A stretch of 64,000 bases of DNA, taken from positions 385,186 through 449,185 of the forward strand of contig NZ_KK073875.1 of the NCBI RefSeq assembly GCF_000585395.1, in the 5' to 3' direction. Shown here in pieces: positions 4,523 through 47,421 of the stretch; position 1 is the first letter of the stretch, and every line of letters starts with the position of its first letter. Position numbers and translations under genes: made by a program. Origin of the DNA: Saccharibacillus sacchari DSM 19268 (lineage in GTDB: Bacteria > Bacillota > Bacilli > Paenibacillales > Paenibacillaceae). The notes beneath the pieces were generated by a model that made no database searches, was not told where the DNA came from, and saw nothing but the letters and a program-made list of their open reading frames with translations.

Positions 4523-5340
4523 CCGAACCACCTCCCTGCCAAAACCATAATCGTCAATGCCAGCCCGCCGCCCGCGACCGAGGACAGCAGGTTTACCGCA
4601 TCGTTATTCATGAAAGACCATCCGCGATAACGCGTGGTCGCCGCTCCGCAATGCGTGCGGCTTTCGACGCTTTTCCCGCATACCGGGCAGCGGTACATCA
4701 CTTGCACCGTCGCGCCCAGGTACGAATCGACGAAAGCGCCGACGGTTCCGCCCAGCGCTCCCGCGGGAATCCATGCCCACCACGGCCAATCCGGTCCGCT
4801 TTTCGTCCAGAGCAGCAATACGAGCGCCGCAGTTCCGATCATGCCCGCGCCGACGACCGCAGCCGCGCTGCCGCGAAGCGACACGCCTCCGGACGTCCCC
4901 GCAGGCAGCGGCTTCCACGTCACGATCGATCGCGGCGGGCTTTTGCTCAGGCTGCCCCATTCGGTTGCCCAGGTGTCCGCGGTCACGGTCGCCATCACGC
5001 CGACGAACGCGCCGAACCAGAGCGGAGAAGGCCAGATATAGTTACCGAGACACAGCACCATGCCGATCCCGCCGTTGGCGAGCACCTGCACCGCGTCGCG
5101 CCGACCGCTTTTTTCGTACATTTGCTCGGCTTGACGCTTCTCGGCCTGCTTGACCTTGGACAATATGCTCGATGTGATAAAGAAGAGCAGCAGTAGGCCA
5201 AACCAGAACAAATCGCCCGCCCCGTAATAAATCGTGCCCATAATAATCGCCACGATCGCGCCGGATGCCGACAACGATCGTTTGGCGTAAGCGGCGCCCG
5301 CTACGAGGCAGGCGCCGACCGCTCCGATGATCCAATCCAC
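4519..5340 (-). CDS. DUF92 family membrane protein
   Basis: This 273-residue integral membrane protein has about six hydrophobic segments. It shows the DUF92 landmarks: an N-terminal AKRSLSASGAIVA segment, the loop ATVTADTWATEWGSLSKSPPRSI, GTSGGVSLRG, and GALGGTVGAFVDSYLGATVQ. A CPVCGK...C pair near residue 218 could bind a metal. DUF92 proteins are related to phytol/farnesol-phosphate kinases (VTE6-type), so a role in isoprenoid phosphate metabolism at the membrane is possible but unproven here. The start is GTG 5340 with GGGAGG about 11 bases upstream. It is followed by tetR with a 4-base overlap and preceded by the FAH gene after 42 bases, so the three genes probably form one transcript. 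Confidence 0.85.
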   Translation of the reverse strand: MDWIIGAVGACLVAGAAYAKRSLSASGAIVAIIMGTIYYGAGDLFWFGLLLLFFITSSILSKVKQAEKRQAEQMYEKSGRRDAVQVLANGGIGMVLCLGNYIWPSPLWFGAFVGVMATVTADTWATEWGSLSKSPPRSIVTWKPLPAGTSGGVSLRGSAAAVVGAGMIGTAALVLLLWTKSGPDWPWWAWIPAGALGGTVGAFVDSYLGATVQVMYRCPVCGKSVESRTHCGAATTRYRGWSFMNNDAVNLLSSVAGGGLALTIMVLAGRWFG

Positions 5341-8926: not shown

Positions 8927-10354
8927 TCACACCGCAGACATCGCCGGAACCGCGCTCGCCATTTCCGTCGAAATCTCTTTCGCCTGACGGATACAATCCG
9001 GCAAACCTACACCGTCGTAACCGGCTCCGGCAATATAGACCCCCGGCAGTTCTTTCGCCATTTGCTCACGCAAATTGGCGATTTGCTGCTTGTGACCTAC
9101 CGGGTACTGCGGCATGGAGTTGTTCAAGCGCGTCACTTCGGTGAACAGCGGCTGTGCATCGATATCCATCAGATCCAGAATGTCTTTGCGAACCAACTCC
9201 ACCAGCCCGGCGTCATCCTGTTTCAACGCTTCCTGCTCGCCGGCCCGTCCTACGTAACATCGCATCAGCACTTTATCGTCCGCGCTGGTGTGCAGCCACT
9301 TGGTCGATGTCCAGGTGCAGGCGGTAATCGTACGTTTTTCTTTGCGCGGAACCAGGAAGCCCGATCCGTCGAAGGTCGTTCGGATATCCTTTTTATCAAA
9401 GGCCAACACGACGTTCGCCACCGACACGTAATTTATCGCATCCAGCGCCGACGCGTCCACGTGAGGCGACAGCAGCCTCGATGTGGCAAAAGTCGGCGTA
9501 GTCGCCACGATAGAGTCCGCCGCAAGCAGACTTCCGTCCTCCAACTCCACGTTGTAGCCGCCTTCGGGCCGCTTGCGGATCGAAGAAGCTCCCGTGTTCA
9601 ATCGCAGATCGACCGTTCCCGACAATTCCGTAATCAAAGCATGAATCAGACTTTGCAGTCCCTGGCGGAAAGTCAGGAACATGCTTTTTTTCGTCCCGGT
9701 ATGCGTCTCGACAGGCTTGCGTCCCGTCATCATGCCTCGGATCAGGCTGCCGTGTTCGCGTTCGACGGCGCCGAACTGCGGAAACGTCGATTCCAGGCTC
9801 AAGCTGCGCGTATCGCCTGCGTAAATGCCCGCAAGCAGCGGTTCGGTCACGTTTTCCAATACTTCGTGCCCCAGCCTGCGCTCGATGAAGTCGCCCAACG
9901 ATTCGTCTTCCTCGCTCCGGCGCGGCGGCAGCACGTAATCCATCAACGCACGCAGTTTGCCCACGGGCGAGACCAGTTTGCTTGCGAGAAACGGCTTGAT
10001 TTGCGTCGGAATGCCAAGCACGAGTCCCGAAGGCATCTCGTGCAGCTTACCTTTATGCAGCAGGTAAGTTTTTTTGGCATCCGGGTTGGTCGTCACCAGA
10101 TCATGATCGATCTCAAGGTCTTTTGCCAGGTCGACCATCGCCGTCTTGCGTGCCAGGAACGAATCCGGGCCTTTTTCAATAACGAAGCCTTCCTTGTGCA
10201 ATGTCTCGATCTTCCCGCCCCATGTATTCCCTTTTTCCAGCACGGTCACGTTCGGCTCAAAGCCCGCTTCGCGCAGGAAGTTCCGGGTGTAAAAGGCGGC
10301 GCTAAGGCCCGTAAGGCCTCCGCCGATGATGACGACGTTACGCTGTTCAGCCAT
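8927..10354 (-). CDS. hemG: coproporphyrinogen III / protoporphyrinogen oxidase (CgoX/HemY type)
   Basis: This 475-residue flavoprotein oxidises the porphyrinogen ring in heme synthesis. In Bacillota it usually converts coproporphyrinogen III to coproporphyrin III. The N-terminus has the FAD dinucleotide motif VVIIGGGLTGLSAAFY and an adenine-binding VTVLEKGNTWGGKIET. C-terminal GVYIAGAGYDGVGLPDCIRQ is the second FAD signature. DSFLARK and FPQF lie in the usual substrate-domain positions. The gene overlaps hemH by eight bases and is the last gene of hemE-hemH-hemG, an order typical of Bacillus-group genomes, where the gene is called hemY or hemG. The start ATG 10354 has AAGGGG upstream. Confidence 0.94.
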   Translation of the reverse strand: MAEQRNVVIIGGGLTGLSAAFYTRNFLREAGFEPNVTVLEKGNTWGGKIETLHKEGFVIEKGPDSFLARKTAMVDLAKDLEIDHDLVTTNPDAKKTYLLHKGKLHEMPSGLVLGIPTQIKPFLASKLVSPVGKLRALMDYVLPPRRSEEDESLGDFIERRLGHEVLENVTEPLLAGIYAGDTRSLSLESTFPQFGAVEREHGSLIRGMMTGRKPVETHTGTKKSMFLTFRQGLQSLIHALITELSGTVDLRLNTGASSIRKRPEGGYNVELEDGSLLAADSIVATTPTFATSRLLSPHVDASALDAINYVSVANVVLAFDKKDIRTTFDGSGFLVPRKEKRTITACTWTSTKWLHTSADDKVLMRCYVGRAGEQEALKQDDAGLVELVRKDILDLMDIDAQPLFTEVTRLNNSMPQYPVGHKQQIANLREQMAKELPGVYIAGAGYDGVGLPDCIRQAKEISTEMASAVPAMSAV

Positions 10355-37568: not shown

Positions 37569-38414
37569 ATGAGTATCGTCGATTCAATGCTTGCCGTAGC
37601 CCCTTACCTGGGAAAAATGATGCGTGAAAATACCGCCGTCATCATTTATGATCGTACCCATATGCTGTATTATGCGCAACACGGAGACTTCGACATGGGT
37701 TACAAAACCGGAGATCAATTATATCCGGGCTTCGAAAACTTCGCTGCGTTGAAAGGTTCCAAAGAAGCCCGTCTGGACGCATACCCGGCGGAGATGTTTA
37801 CGTTTGGTTATCCGCTGCATTCCGTAACCATTCCTTTGCTCGAAAACGGAGAAGTCGCAGCCGTATTGACGATCAGCTACGACCAAACCAACCAGGAGAA
37901 GCTCCAAACGCTTGCCAACGACAACCGTTCGATTGCCGAGAACCTGGTCGATATGGTTCAGCATATTGCTGCTCATGCCGAAGAACTTCAAGCAACCAGC
38001 GAACAGATCCTCGTCAACACCAAAACGGCTGTACAGAATTCCGGCAAAATCACCAACGTCGCGACGCTGATCAAGGAAATCTCCGATCAGACGAACATGC
38101 TCGGCTTGAACGCCGCTATCGAAGCTGCGCGCGTCGGCGAGCTGGGAGCCGGATTCGGCGTTGTTGCTTCCGAAGTGCGCAAGCTGGCCGTCCACTCCAA
38201 ATCGGCTACAGCAGATATTGAGCTGGCACTAAAAGACGTGCAGGATTCGATCCGCGTCATGGAAAACGAAATTTCCCAAATCGTATCTTCGTCGCAAGAA
38301 CAAGCCAATCTCGTTACAAACTTTACGGACGTGATCGAACGCCTGCAAAAGACCGGAGAATCCATGCAGGATCTGGCGTCTAACCTGACCCGTTACCACA
38401 AAGAAGTCCGCTAA
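37569..38414 (+). CDS. soluble methyl-accepting chemotaxis protein (YfmS-like), copy 1
   Basis: This 281-residue protein has no membrane segment, so it should be a cytosolic chemoreceptor. Residues 1-120 form a small sensory domain ([40 protein letters not shown]). The rest is a short MCP signalling helical bundle with the hairpin-tip sequence [38 protein letters not shown] and a C-terminal [21 protein letters not shown]. subtilis YfmS has the same size and layout. ATG 37569 follows AAGGAAAG. A close paralogue lies directly downstream. The ligand is unknown, and the neighbouring nitrite genes raise the possibility of a link to nitrogen-oxide or redox sensing. Confidence 0.9.
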
Positions 38415-38463
38415 CGGAAAATATACGCCGCAAACCGACCCCAATTACTTGCCTTAACAACAA

Positions 38464-38506
38464 GAGCCGCCTGTCTCCGATTTGGAGCAAGCGGCTTTCT
38501 TTTTTA
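38464..38506 (+). terminator. terminator between the twin chemoreceptor genes
   Basis: AGCCGCCTGTCTCC pairs with GGAGCAAGCGGCT, followed by TTCTTTTTT, about 50 bases after the first chemoreceptor stop. Confidence 0.8.
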
Positions 38507-38585
38507 TAAAAACGTCTTCAAAATTCCGTTCTTTTTCCGATAATTAGGTAGGTAGGCGTTTATATCCGGAAAGGAATGTGAAACG

Positions 38586-39428
38586 ATGAACAAGTTAGAA
38601 GCATTGCTGCAAACCGCTCCTTTATTCAGTACGGTAGCCCGCGAAGAGGTTGCCGTCACCATCTATGATGCTACGCATGTCCTGTATTACGAGCAAGCGG
38701 GAAGCTTCCATCTGGGATATCATACGGGAGAACCGATGAAGGAAGGTTTCGAGAACTTCGTAACCCTGGAAGGCCGTACAGAGCCGTTCATTTTGAAGTT
38801 CCCGGAAGACTGGTATAGCGCGCCCCTCGAATCCGTCGTCGTTCCGGTTCTCGAAGACAACAAAGTGATCGCCGTATTAAATCTTACATATAATCAGAAG
38901 AGCCGCGACGAATTGAATTCGATCGTCAAGACGAACGGAGCGATTGCCGAGCAGCTGGGCGACATGACCCAAAGCATCGCCGCACATTCGCAGCAGCTTC
39001 AAGCCACCAGCGAGCAAATTTTGGAGAATACGAAAACGGCTGTGCAAAAGTCCGGCAAAATCACGAGCGTCGCTACGCTGATCAAGGAAATCTCCGACCA
39101 GACGAATATGTTGGGGCTGAACGCCGCTATCGAAGCTGCCCGCGTCGGCGAGCTGGGTGCCGGATTCGGCGTCGTGGCTGCCGAGGTACGCAAGCTGGCC
39201 GTTCACTCCAAATCCGCAACAGCGGACATCGAGACGGCTCTCAAAGACGTTCAGGACTCGATCCGCACGATGGAAGCCGAGATCGCGCAGATCGTCGCCT
39301 CTTCGAAAGAACAAGCCGAGTTGGTTTCTTCGTTTACCGACGTGATCGAGCGCTTGCAGCAGACCGGCAGCTCCATGCAAGACCTGTCTCAAAGCCTGCT
39401 GCAATATCATGTCAAATCGCATGCCTGA
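38586..39428 (+). CDS. soluble methyl-accepting chemotaxis protein (YfmS-like), copy 2
   Basis: This 280-residue paralogue has the same architecture as the preceding gene: an N-terminal sensory domain ([40 protein letters not shown]) and a nearly identical signalling bundle ([38 protein letters not shown]). The sensory halves have diverged much more than the signalling halves, as expected for a tandem duplication with new ligand specificity. ATG 38586 follows AAGGAATGTGAAACG, similar to the leader of copy 1. It has its own upstream region after a terminator, so the two may be expressed separately. Confidence 0.9.
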
Positions 39429-43755: not shown

Positions 43756-43784
43756 TTGCTACTTTCAAATAGGTATACTATAAT
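43756..43784 (+). promoter_or_regulatory. promoter of the riboswitch-controlled operon
   Basis: TTGCTA (43756-43761) and a perfect TATAAT (43779-43784) are spaced by 17 bases. They lie about 60 bases upstream of the riboswitch aptamer. A TTGACA at 43733 has no properly spaced -10. Confidence 0.65.
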
Positions 43785-43850
43785 TCTATTTGGCTATAGA
43801 GTGGAATTTATCTACTTTCATCAAGTGAAAATCCTTATACAATCTCATAT

Positions 43851-43930
43851 TTTGGCAAACTTATTGAAAAATAAGGACGCAAAGCTATAGGGACCAAATC
43901 CGTCGGGGTAGGTCAGCCAGTTGCATTCAA
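43851..43930 (+). ncRNA. cyclic di-GMP-I (GEMM-I) riboswitch aptamer
   Basis: Landmarks of the GEMM-I class occur in order. GGCAAAC (43854-43860) is followed by the short hairpin CTTATT-GAAA-AATAAG with its GAAA tetraloop, then GGACGCAAAGC (43875-43885), TATAGGGACC, and the receptor helix GGTCAGCCAGTTGC (43911-43924). GCAA at the start pairs with TTGC at the end to close P1. CCAGTTG (43917-43923) can instead pair with CAATTGG (43931-43937), which overlaps the following terminator. The expected result is that c-di-GMP binding frees the terminator and turns the operon off. The direction is inferred from pairing only. Confidence 0.88.
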
Positions 43931-43935
43931 CAATT

Positions 43936-43973
43936 GGCGAGGTATGGGTATTTGTACCCATTTTCGCCTTTTT
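43936..43973 (+). terminator. riboswitch expression-platform terminator
   Basis: GGCGA (43936-43940) pairs with TCGCC (43964-43968), enclosing TGGGTA with TACCCA, followed by five T residues. It ends 28 bases before the start codon of the decarboxylase gene. Its first two bases overlap the alternative pairing partner of the aptamer. Confidence 0.85.
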
Positions 43974-44001
43974 ACATTTTAGATTGGGGAGGAACCCAGG
44001 A

Positions 44002-45672
44002 GTGTCTAATTACAGAGAGAATTCCGTACAAACCTTTTTTCCAAGCGAGGATGGAAATCAAGAAGAACGTCAGCAGTTTATGCAGCTCATCGAGCAATTG
44101 ATTACAGGTGTCGACGATTTGAAAAACCCTAACGGCGTAAATTTGTTGGGCGAAAAAGAACGTTCGAAGTCCTTCTATACCGATTTGATTCGCAATAGCA
44201 CAATCCCGGCGGATAGCACGGACCAAAAAGAAGTAAACGAGCATTTGCTGAAGCTGCTGCACAATCACCCTTACCACTCCAAATATTTCTTGACGAATAT
44301 TCTGCCAATGGCAAGCACTCCGGGAATCTTGGGCATGATCACGGCATTCCTGGTGAATGGCAACAATCTTTGGGATGTATACGGTCCTGCCGGTGCCGAG
44401 GCGGAAGTTCGCGTCATCAGCATGATGTCCAAGCTGGTCGGATATGATCCGCAACTGAGCGGCGGTTATACGACATGGGGCGGTCAAGGTGCTATTTTCA
44501 CAGGCCTGAGATTGGCGATCGCCAAAGTTGCACCGGATGCTCCTCGTAAGGGCGTTCCGCGCAACCTGTATGCCTTTTGCTCGGAATCGGCTCATTACAG
44601 CTTGTTCAAATCCATGGAAGCAACAGGACTCGGCAGCGATAACCTGATTAAGATTCGCACCCATTCCGATAGCTCGATGGACACCGAAGACCTTCGTCAA
44701 AAGATGGAGAAAGTCATTGCCGAGGGCGGCATTCCGGTTTACGTCGTAGCGACTACGGGCACCACCGATGCGATGGGCATCGATAATGTTAAATTGATCA
44801 AGGAAACCGCTGCGGAAGTAGCCGCTCAACACGGTTTGCAGCGTCCGCATATTCATGCCGACTCCGCGCTCGGCGGATTTTTCGCCTTTTTCCGCGAGTA
44901 CGATTTTGCGGGCAATCCGCTGAAGTTCCCGACGCAAGTGTTGGGAGCTTTGCAGCAAATCAACAGCAGAATGCAATACCTGTCGCTGGCCGACACGCTC
45001 TGCTTCGACTTCCAAAAGCTCGGCCAAACGCCTTATTCGACAAGCCTCTTCCTGGTAAAAAATGCTGCTGATCTCCAGCTCGTTGATCTTGCCGAAGAAG
45101 AAACGCCTTATGTCGGACACCGGGGTTATGGCGATTATCACACGGGCTACACTTTGGAATGCTCGCGTATGGCAAGTTCGATCAGTATCTATAGCGCGCT
45201 TCTGGCATTCGGCGTGACCGGGTATCAACGTCTGCTGGCCCAGTTTGTCGAAGTCAACCTGGCATTCCGAGACGCGTTGCGCCGCGAAATTCCCGAAGCT
45301 GTGATCGTGAACGATGAAAATCCGGCGATCATGACGCTGTTCCGGATCTACCCGGATCGGAAGAACGATTTCCAAGCGGAATTGTCCGGCCAATGCTCAC
45401 TTGCTCATATCGAAGATACCAATCGTTTGAACGAGCAACTGTTCGAAGTCTTGGGCGAGAAAAGAGAGGTCATGTTCTTCGGGGATACGAAAAAACATTT
45501 GGTGGTGCCGACAAGCGACGGAAACCAAACTTCCCTGTCCGCCGCTAAACTGTTTGTCATTTCGCCTTATACGCAAGTTTCGCATGTGCCGGAAATCGTA
45601 GACTATCTCAAGCAAAATATCGACACCGTATTTCATTCCTATGCAGGTACGCTGCAACCAATCGGAGGGTAA
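44002..45672 (+). CDS. PLP-dependent (group II-type) amino acid decarboxylase
   Basis: This protein of about 556 residues has the fold-type I decarboxylase pattern. TTWGGQGAIFTGLRLAI is an SGGT-like substrate/PLP region. Later come VYVVATTGTTDAMGIDNV, HIHADSALGGFFAFF with the PLP-binding Asp, and DFQKLGQTPYSTSLFL, where Lys is the probable Schiff-base residue. It resembles glutamate/tyrosine/aspartate decarboxylase relatives, and the substrate is not readable. The frame opens at 43921, but GTG 44002 follows GGGGAGG by nine bases and lies after the riboswitch terminator. It is therefore the first gene under c-di-GMP control. A chemoreceptor gene starts three bases after its stop. Together they may link an amino-acid-derived product to motility or lifestyle switching. 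Confidence 0.86.
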   Translation: MSNYRENSVQTFFPSEDGNQEERQQFMQLIEQLITGVDDLKNPNGVNLLGEKERSKSFYTDLIRNSTIPADSTDQKEVNEHLLKLLHNHPYHSKYFLTNILPMASTPGILGMITAFLVNGNNLWDVYGPAGAEAEVRVISMMSKLVGYDPQLSGGYTTWGGQGAIFTGLRLAIAKVAPDAPRKGVPRNLYAFCSESAHYSLFKSMEATGLGSDNLIKIRTHSDSSMDTEDLRQKMEKVIAEGGIPVYVVATTGTTDAMGIDNVKLIKETAAEVAAQHGLQRPHIHADSALGGFFAFFREYDFAGNPLKFPTQVLGALQQINSRMQYLSLADTLCFDFQKLGQTPYSTSLFLVKNAADLQLVDLAEEETPYVGHRGYGDYHTGYTLECSRMASSISIYSALLAFGVTGYQRLLAQFVEVNLAFRDALRREIPEAVIVNDENPAIMTLFRIYPDRKNDFQAELSGQCSLAHIEDTNRLNEQLFEVLGEKREVMFFGDTKKHLVVPTSDGNQTSLSAAKLFVISPYTQVSHVPEIVDYLKQNIDTVFHSYAGTLQPIGG

Positions 45673-45675
45673 CAC

Positions 45676-47421
45676 GTGTTAAAGAATACATCAAATCCAT
45701 CCAAGAAATCCGCATTTGGCTGGTATAAAAATCATATTTCGGCAAAAATGATTTCTTCGATTATTTTGCTGATCGTATTTACTTGTACGGCGTTCTCGAT
45801 TGCAGAATCCCAAATCAGCAACCGGCTTACAAGCGAATTGGAAGCCCAATTCGATCTGCGGCTCGCCACAAGCATTCAGTCGATCAACGCTTATTTGGAA
45901 TCGATTCCCGAGAATCCGGCAGATATTGACGGAACCGACAATGCGGCGCACAAGAAAATCAAAGACAAGCTGGAGAACATACTCGTAACCGATACGTTGG
46001 AAAATGTGTACATTCTCAGCAACAACACGGGCAAGGAACAGCTCGTGATCCTGACCGGCGTAGACGATGATTTCGGAACAGATTATGCGTTTTCGGATGA
46101 AATGAAGACGGCTATCTCTTCTCAGAAGATGACGTACAGCTCGATCTACGAAGACGAGTACGGCATCCACAAATCGGTCTTCCTTCCTTTGAAAGACGGT
46201 AACGGAAATACGTTCGGGATTGCAGGCATCGATATTGACGCGAGCGTTATTCCGGCTACGCAAACCTTCATTTTCTGGTTCACCGTTATCATTGTCGCAG
46301 TCGTGATTGTCATCGGCGTTGCTGTAGCTTTCTTGCTCAGCCGCAGCCTGACTCGCCCGATCAACCGACTTGTGAACGCGACCCAAAAAGTCGCGGAAGG
46401 CGATCTGACCGAAGCATTGGTACTCAAACGCGAAGACGAACTCGGTACGTTAGCCGATTCGTTCAATACGATGCGGGGCAATTTGGAGACGTTGATTCAT
46501 CAAATCTCAAGTTCTTCCGAAGTGTTCTCGACGACGGCAGGCAATATCAATCAATCGTCCAATGAAATGGGAGCCAGCTCGCATCAGGTTGCCCTTTCCA
46601 TGAACAGCGTGAACGAAGGCGTATCCGAAGTCGTGGTCTCGATCAACGACAGCACCTCTTCGATCGTGGAAGCCAACGATGAATTGGCCAAGGTAACGAA
46701 CGAAGTCGCGGGCATGCAGCAAATGGTTCAGGAGGTCAGCTCCTATTCCAAAGACGGCCAAGTGCTCGTCGAGAAAACCTTGAACCAAATGAACGTGATC
46801 CAACAAGAGATGCGACAATCTCAAGAAGCTGCCGTTCAGCTCGATACGCGTTCCAAGGAGATCAGCGATTTTATCACGGTCATTACGCATATCGCCACGC
46901 AGACCAACTTGCTGGCATTGAACGCCTCGATTGAAGCTGCGCACGTGGGTGAACACGGTAAAGGCTTCGCGGTTGTTGCCGGAGAAGTCAAAAAGCTGGC
47001 CGAACAATCGTCCAATGCGGCCAACTCCATTACGGAACTTATTCACAGTACCCAACTGGACAGCCAATCCGTGCTTACAAGCATTGAACAAGGCAGTCAG
47101 GCTGTTGAAAAAGGACAAGAATGGATTAACGAGATGTCGGAGAACTTTAATACGATCTTCAACGGCGTATCCTCGTTCTCTTCCCAAATCGGCCATCTGA
47201 AAAACTCGCTCGATAAAACAGATCGTTCGTTCGAGCTGATTACCGATTCCATGCAAAAAATTTCCGGGATTACCGAAGAACAATCGGCCGGATACGAAGA
47301 AGTCGGAGCCGCGATCGAAGAGCAAAGCGCGACCATGCAAGAAATCGCGGGCGCCATTCGCAATCTGTCCCAAATGGCCGACGAGCTGCAAGCCTCGGTA
47401 CAATATTTCAAAGTATCTTAA
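45676..47421 (+). CDS. membrane methyl-accepting chemotaxis protein with extracellular sensor
   Basis: This 581-residue transmembrane chemoreceptor has TM1 near residues 17-40 and an extracellular sensor of about 155 residues (Cache-like by size, with [20 protein letters not shown] and [14 protein letters not shown]). TM2 lies near 195-220, followed by HAMP ([22 protein letters not shown]) and a full signalling domain. The tip is [20 protein letters not shown], and [20 protein letters not shown] follows. The start is GTG 45676, seven bases after GGAGG and three bases after the decarboxylase stop, so the genes are co-transcribed and under the same riboswitch. It may sense a ligand related to the decarboxylase reaction, which is inferred from linkage only. 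Confidence 0.92.

Follow-up and report, generated by a model that had tools for sequence, protein, structure and literature searches.

A c-di-GMP-I riboswitch ahead of a decarboxylase–chemoreceptor operon in Saccharibacillus sacchari, and the linkage of the two genes in Bacilli

A riboswitch, a decarboxylase and a chemoreceptor

We analyzed a stretch of 64,000 nucleotides from Saccharibacillus sacchari DSM 19268 (contig NZ_KK073875.1, positions 385,186 to 449,185; hereafter the window), in which a riboswitch of the cyclic di-GMP class I (c-di-GMP-I, or GEMM-I) precedes the genes of an amino-acid decarboxylase and a chemoreceptor. A first-pass annotation, made from the sequence alone, had located a GEMM-I aptamer at 43851-43930. 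The Rfam covariance model of this class, RF01051, matched the forward strand with 64.4 bits (E 2.6e-10), well over the gathering score of 35, and moved the ends by a few bases, to 43844-43928; a chance aptamer is ruled out by this score. The G at 43855, directly 5' of CAAA, is invariant across 17 aligned aptamers and presumably occupies the position of G20 in Vc2, a mapping onto the window that is our own. An A at Vc2 G20 is reported to move the preference to cyclic GMP-AMP (cGAMP) (PMC9262584, PMC6274999), and a cGAMP-type aptamer is ruled out by the conserved G. Given that the genome, a single contig of 6.08 Mb, contains eight c-di-GMP-I aptamers and 31 GGDEF domains, c-di-GMP is a plausible ligand.

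The two genes had been read as one operon, and this arrangement was borne out, the GTG of the receptor lying three bases downstream of the decarboxylase stop (45670-45672). Likewise, the families proposed for both products, a pyridoxal phosphate (PLP)-dependent amino-acid decarboxylase and a chemoreceptor, were recovered with Pfam. The longest decarboxylase frame begins with a TTG at 43921, within the aptamer; the likely start is a GTG after the ribosome-binding site GGGGAGGA, yielding a protein of 556 residues that matches PF00282 with 95.3 bits (cut-off 27). An AlphaFold2 model built on 49 relatives (predicted local distance difference test, pLDDT, of 88.4) was placed by Foldseek among the group II PLP decarboxylases (best E 1.4e-27), its neighbours acting on glutamate, cysteine sulfinate, lysine, tryptophan, tyrosine and other substrates. 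The Sphaerobacter decarboxylase 4rit, GAD67 (2okj) and the R. gnavus tryptophan decarboxylase 4obv share the fold and the PLP-site motifs with the window enzyme, whereas sequence identity is only 16-22% among the 50 matches listed. K339, D287 and H198, which we take to be the PLP lysine, the PLP-binding aspartate and the stacking histidine, are invariant in 49 decarboxylase sequences and lie in segments that align with a relative of known structure. None of the NCBIfam equivalogs (DABA, aspartate, tyrosine, histidine and glutamate decarboxylases) came near its cut-off, the best reaching 93.9 of 900 bits, and the substrate can therefore not be named. The enzyme looks like a separate branch; its nearest named relatives are those of Saccharibacillus, with 87-93% identity.

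The receptor carries a signalling domain of the methyl-accepting chemotaxis protein (MCP) type (MCPsignal, PF00015, 148.5 bits) and a HAMP domain (PF00672, 61.9 bits). Its sensor region stays under the cut-off of the Pfam Cache models (dCache_1, 17.0 of 45 bits), and a PDB sequence search with it returned nothing under E 0.1. In the structural model (pLDDT 88.0), the sensor, which spans roughly residues 45-195, aligns with the Cache and extracellular PAS folds of Tlp3, WalK, DctB, KinD and DcuS (Z 13-15, VIA), and the hydrophobic stretches visible in the sequence are located in long flanking helices. By predicted fold, the receptor would thus have a single Cache-type sensor domain. The genome has only 50 MCP signal-domain matches over the cut-off in its 6.08 Mb, a background against which the adjacency described below is to be seen. 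No ligand is known for most chemoreceptors of soil Bacilli. Elsewhere in the window, at 37569-39428, two tandem genes encode short MCP-domain proteins of 281 and 280 residues, neither of which has a HAMP or sensor domain according to Pfam.

The features of the locus are collected in Table 1. The sigma-A promoter candidate is weak because the number of promoter-like sites, three compared to a shuffle mean of 4.7, is not above shuffles.

Table 1. Features at the decarboxylase–chemoreceptor locus, in window positions.
Feature	Position	Strand	Basis
Two tRNA genes	upstream of the aptamer (43844-43928)		same scan as the Rfam aptamer match
Possible sigma-A promoter of the operon, TTGCTA-17-TATAAT	43756-43784	+	10/12 consensus matches, weak
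c-di-GMP-I (GEMM-I) riboswitch aptamer	43844-43928	+	RF01051, 64.4 bits
Putative antiterminator 5' strand CCAGUUG, in 3' strand of aptamer core	43917-43923	+	folding, leader comparison
Putative antiterminator 3' strand CAAUUGG, covering first two terminator-stem bases	43931-43937	+	folding, leader comparison
Intrinsic terminator (stem 43936-43968, U tract TTTTT 43969-43973)	43936-43973	+	-17.9 kcal/mol
Ribosome-binding site GGGGAGGA of decarboxylase	43986-43993	+	sequence
Group II PLP-dependent amino-acid decarboxylase, 556 aa, GTG start	44002-45672	+	PF00282, model fold
Ribosome-binding site GGAGGG of chemoreceptor, within decarboxylase 3' end	45664-45669	+	sequence
Chemoreceptor, single Cache-type sensor (predicted), HAMP and MCP signalling domains, 581 aa	45676-47421	+	Pfam, model

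Linkage of enzyme and receptor in relatives

A pattern-based scan of a species-genome collection returned 91 decarboxylase relatives, the best 80 of which were kept as loci, and the window receptor and other cluster genes were placed in them by tblastn. At 79 of the 80 loci a chemoreceptor lies in the decarboxylase cluster, the exception, L065, having a broken decarboxylase. The coupling of the two genes, which the first-pass annotation had put forward as its own idea and had tied to conserved linkage in relatives, thus withstood this comparison. In 74 loci (58 of group A and 16 of group B, see below), receptor and decarboxylase are direct neighbours, and in L067, L069, L079, L085 and L086 they are separated by one or two genes. 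L077, one of the 16 adjacent group B loci, carries between them what looks like the remnant of a symporter gene, an aptamer being followed by a symporter start that soon hits a stop just before the decarboxylase (4606-4800).

Group A comprises 59 loci with a window-type receptor, nearly always directly downstream of the decarboxylase at a spacing of -47 to +56 nt (54 loci measured); in L057, the receptor lies upstream. Group B comprises 21 loci in which the decarboxylase is about 47% identical and the cluster consists of a gene of 119-122 aa, a GNAT-like gene of 236 aa, a receptor with an N-terminal anchor and the decarboxylase; in L079 and L086, the first three are on the strand opposite the decarboxylase. 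The 236 aa product is no more than GNAT-like, scoring 20.4 bits against a cut-off of 20.7 in L068 and giving no match in L079. For the 119-122 aa product, the label 'STAS-like' was dropped, two members having no Pfam or NCBIfam match. PDB sequence searches with either protein returned nothing under E 0.1.

To locate the leader in these relatives, we used a riboswitch model, R1, built from 17 aptamers, which has only 8 base pairs and therefore works largely as a sequence profile; Rfam agreed with it in 24 of 24 loci submitted, 15 outside its training set and 9 used to build it. R1 found c-di-GMP-I aptamers ahead of cluster genes in 53 of the 80 loci (34/59 in group A, 19/21 in group B), and 21 of 30 family-level loci have a riboswitch ahead of the cluster. 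L140 has a second c-di-GMP-I aptamer (9002-9085) behind the receptor gene; the 157 aa frame that follows this aptamer has no match in Pfam.

At class level, the enzyme was found in 15 of 398 genomes. The receptor is adjacent in all eight loci read with flanks (8 of the 15), four times convergent with the decarboxylase; of these eight, L139 comes from the genome to which L057 also belongs, and L145 has the B. pumilus type. A quick tree built from 62 decarboxylases, which carries a long-branch warning and for which we assigned the arrangement labels ourselves (symporters between receptor and decarboxylase, as in L069 and L085, having no label of their own), suggests that the arrangement changed at least seven times and the riboswitch state at least four times. 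In total, head-to-tail, reversed, divergent and convergent pairs were seen. Among 295 Paenibacillaceae genomes, 29 have both the enzyme (E <= 1e-60) and the sensor domain (E <= 1e-20), two the enzyme alone, one the sensor alone and 263 neither; the Fisher p of 1.2e-36 is only indicative because the species are related. When a profile of the sensor was run on 10 genomes, its best match was the receptor beside the decarboxylase in eight, two of which (G000 and G585) were already in the profile by construction, and not in G145 and G268. The convergent receptors score 57-63 bits, only a modest excess given that other Cache receptors of the Saccharibacillus genome reach 51.5 bits; in the four convergent cases, generic Cache receptors score close to the best match.

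Direction of the switch

The terminator called in the first pass was recovered as a stem followed by TTTTT. A terminator search, which had no shuffle control and chose the wrong hairpin in L034, reported a hairpin with a T-rich tail in every one of 56 leaders; in 46, its energy was -10 kcal/mol or better. The window leader also allows the antiterminator proposed earlier, in which CCAGUUG of the aptamer pairs with CAAUUGG. Folded to 43938 without ligand, the antiterminator fold reaches -25.6 kcal/mol compared to -16.5 kcal/mol with the aptamer pairs enforced, and at full length the antiterminator is still favoured (-39.3 vs -35.6 kcal/mol), no ligand energy being counted in these values. With the aptamer enforced, the leader to 43975 forms the complete terminator. 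In the window and 15 related leaders, the aptamer CCAGUUGC stands opposite a GCAAUUGG-type strand, mostly outside aptamer and terminator. Across these 16 leaders (15 distinct), 94.2% of 120 antiterminator cells are paired, compared to 13.3-50.0% when the strands are slid; because the 16 are the riboswitch loci with an AATTGG-type linker, chosen after the linkers had been inspected, this figure is descriptive, and its shuffle control was uninformative (500/500).

Several observations weigh against an OFF switch of this design. Among the 15 distinct leaders, an inner mismatch occurs in two and the outermost pair is absent from five, and no covariation supports the antiterminator across the related leaders, since its aptamer strand does not vary. 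Tested leader by leader, the antiterminator duplex mostly does not reach significance. In the window alone the pairing is unexceptional, being matched by 19 of 200 dinucleotide shuffles; shuffles pair as well in 0-53 of 200 cases for the 16 related leaders and in 5-88 of 200 for 17 group B leaders, and several other leaders are at chance level (188, 166 and 152 of 200 for L051, L064 and L023). When five more leaders were folded at full length in the absence of ligand, L019, L078 and L083 gave the terminator, and L014 and L068 the antiterminator. The antiterminator of the first-pass annotation stands as a possible pairing that is kept in the 15 related leaders and is weak in many other relatives. 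In group B, the aptamer GAUAGUC is complementary to the terminator 5' arm GGCUAUC in 13 of 17 aligned leaders, the other four having one mismatch (by eye), and the expression platforms of groups A and B appear, again by eye, unrelated.

The loci without a riboswitch bear on the direction from another side. Sixteen of these 27 belong to the Bacillus pumilus and licheniformis groups, and in 16 of 16 the pattern TAAA-N12..17-NCGATAT, which we take to be the consensus of the motility factor sigma-D, ends 43-77 nt ahead of the region matched as decarboxylase. It is also present in L070, L078 and L082, three riboswitch loci, at 167-186 nt upstream of the aptamer, and altogether 19 near sites were seen against 0.60 expected from the rate elsewhere in the loci. 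The weight of this result is reduced by the pattern having been loosened after a first look at those leaders and by the 16 loci coming from two close species groups. Control by sigma-D goes with expression in motile cells with low c-di-GMP. With a riboswitch in some loci and a sigma-D-like motif in others, two unrelated controls would thus point to the motile phase, if the riboswitch is an OFF switch. The remaining 11 riboswitch-less loci have neither an aptamer by R1 nor a sigma-D-like motif. Seven riboswitch-less loci are from Paenibacillus (L038, L044, L045, L050, L053, L054 and L065, about 4650-5000), and five of them (L038, L045, L050, L053 and L054) have in common an upstream DNA that is partly palindromic (CCATTTCATGG-like, by eye), without aptamer or sigma-D-like motif.

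According to these data, the window riboswitch is best read as a transcriptional OFF switch, as the first-pass annotation had it; this direction is favoured by the window fold, the 16 related leaders and the sigma-D-like motif in Bacillus, and is not proven because other leaders do not show the antiterminator clearly. Known systems provide precedents on either side. In the OFF-switch Cd1 of the C. difficile flagellar operon, as in the arrangement favoured here, ligand favours a terminator and the target is motility, although Cd1 controls flagellar genes and not an enzyme–receptor pair (PMC9262584). Closest in layout is Bc1-mcpE of the Bacillus cereus group, present in 98.7% of 155 genomes, where a c-di-GMP-I riboswitch with terminators likewise precedes a chemoreceptor gene; unlike the window, Bc1 has two terminators, and the parts of that report used here mention no decarboxylase (PMC11218506). 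For Bc1 of B. thuringiensis, McpE is reported to have been unaffected by c-di-GMP in vivo, and adding ligand opened the first terminator instead of forming it (PMC11218506), both of which speak against the OFF assignment. That the window riboswitch might be an ON switch, or unresponsive in cells like Bc1, also accords with the weak antiterminator of many relatives and with the three of five further leaders that form the terminator without ligand. We nevertheless consider this rather improbable in light of the window fold, the conservation of the antiterminator in the 16 related leaders, and the sigma-D-like motif ahead of the same operon in Bacillus.

The same aptamer class also serves a different kind of target in Bc2-cap, where it precedes a collagen adhesin gene (PMC4933901) and is called an ON riboswitch (PMC11218506). 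A region outside the window recalls this adhesin target: six of the genome's eight aptamers, four of them forming two tandem pairs, lie within 7 kb (L119 6487-13133, i.e. C1:1942486-1949132), together with transglutaminase-like genes, an ice-binding-like LPXTG adhesin and a sortase. This is a dense surface-protein region, probably under c-di-GMP control. A further aptamer of the genome (L120 2205-2297, i.e. C1:5151704-5151796) precedes a frame of 332 aa for which Pfam gives no match.

A possible sense-and-convert module

On balance, we lean toward an OFF riboswitch acting on a two-gene operon whose enzyme and receptor form one motile-phase sense-and-convert module. At low c-di-GMP, as in motile cells, the aptamer 3' strand would pair with CAAUUGG, the terminator would lose its base, and decarboxylase and chemoreceptor would be produced together. 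At high c-di-GMP, as in sessile cells, the ligand would hold the aptamer, the terminator would form, and both genes would be silenced. Across Bacilli, the two proteins would act as one unit dedicated to one amino acid or to the corresponding amine. Aptamer, terminator, gene order, linkage and co-occurrence, as well as the sigma-D-like motif at riboswitch-less Bacillus loci, are results of computation. The direction of the switch, the activity of the enzyme and the compound common to both proteins are what we infer here, the last of these from the linkage. Some clusters offer a hint of the chemistry. An SNF-family symporter is encoded ahead of the decarboxylase in L067, L069, L085, L141 and L144 (Pfam was run on L067 and L141), with the aptamer ahead of the symporter in L067, L069 and L085. 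The nearest sequence to the L067 symporter is 4us3 (E 6.9e-103), presumably MhsT, a hydrophobic amino acid transporter, and bacterial members of this family import amino acids. The presence of uptake, decarboxylation and receptor in one cluster suggests that one amino acid is sensed and converted.

Not all loci fit the idea of a shared compound. Group B makes up 21 of the 80 loci, and the two of its receptors that were inspected have only a short membrane anchor at the N-terminus, no sensor domain having been found in them. G226 retains riboswitch and receptor but lacks the enzyme, and G268 carries only the enzyme, with no riboswitch. In G145, a riboswitch, a GNAT-like gene and the enzyme occur together, and no receptor lies alongside; elsewhere in this genome, away from the decarboxylase, a c-di-GMP-I aptamer is followed by an ATP-grasp gene and a receptor of the same sensor family (L147 1986-5188), where another enzyme may have taken the place of the decarboxylase as receptor partner. 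Riboswitch and operon could be as described, with enzyme and receptor mere neighbours that are each useful to motile cells, the enzyme for example buffering pH or making an amine for another purpose. The inspected group B receptors, the receptor retained in G226 and the best sensor-family match of G145, which sits with the ATP-grasp gene, all agree with such an arrangement. It is nonetheless an unlikely account given the near-perfect co-occurrence across the 295 genomes and the recurrence of the pair in head-to-tail, reversed, divergent and convergent order: no promoter is common to convergent genes, and the pairing thus needs more than co-transcription to be explained. Less probable still is that the amine is released and read by the partner receptor, so that cells steer by their own product; that the receptor may detect the product had been suggested in the first-pass annotation. 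The tight genetic coupling would fit such a self-generated signal, and the GNAT-like gene of group B, below its cut-off, could modify the amine. The inspected group B receptors speak against it as well, and the amino-acid-type symporters of some clusters indicate that a substrate is taken up, not that a signal is exported.

Bc1-mcpE already provides a known case of a c-di-GMP-I riboswitch preceding a chemoreceptor gene. A description of the decarboxylase–receptor pair, of its spread or of the sigma-D-like alternative was not found in titles and abstract openings of the open-licence literature, among the matches listed, and there the decarboxylase partner is apparently undescribed. Taken further, and only tentatively, since we regard this extension as less likely than not, the locus could represent a new signalling module of Bacilli, in which the decarboxylase makes or removes the compound that its receptor reads and c-di-GMP or sigma-D limits both to the motile phase. 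If true, motile cells would steer by a chemical that they themselves produce or consume. Independently of this extension, the operon would be a case in which c-di-GMP controls a metabolic enzyme and a receptor at once. An enzyme travelling with one receptor family narrows the search for the receptor's ligand to one reaction; once the substrate is found, either it or the product probably serves as the ligand. Moreover, the same operon stands behind a sigma-factor-like motif in one lineage and behind an RNA switch in another, making this regulatory swap testable. The recurrence of the enzyme–sensor pair in many soil Bacillus-type bacteria suggests that, in moving cells, a common control governs both the detection and the conversion of one and the same compound.

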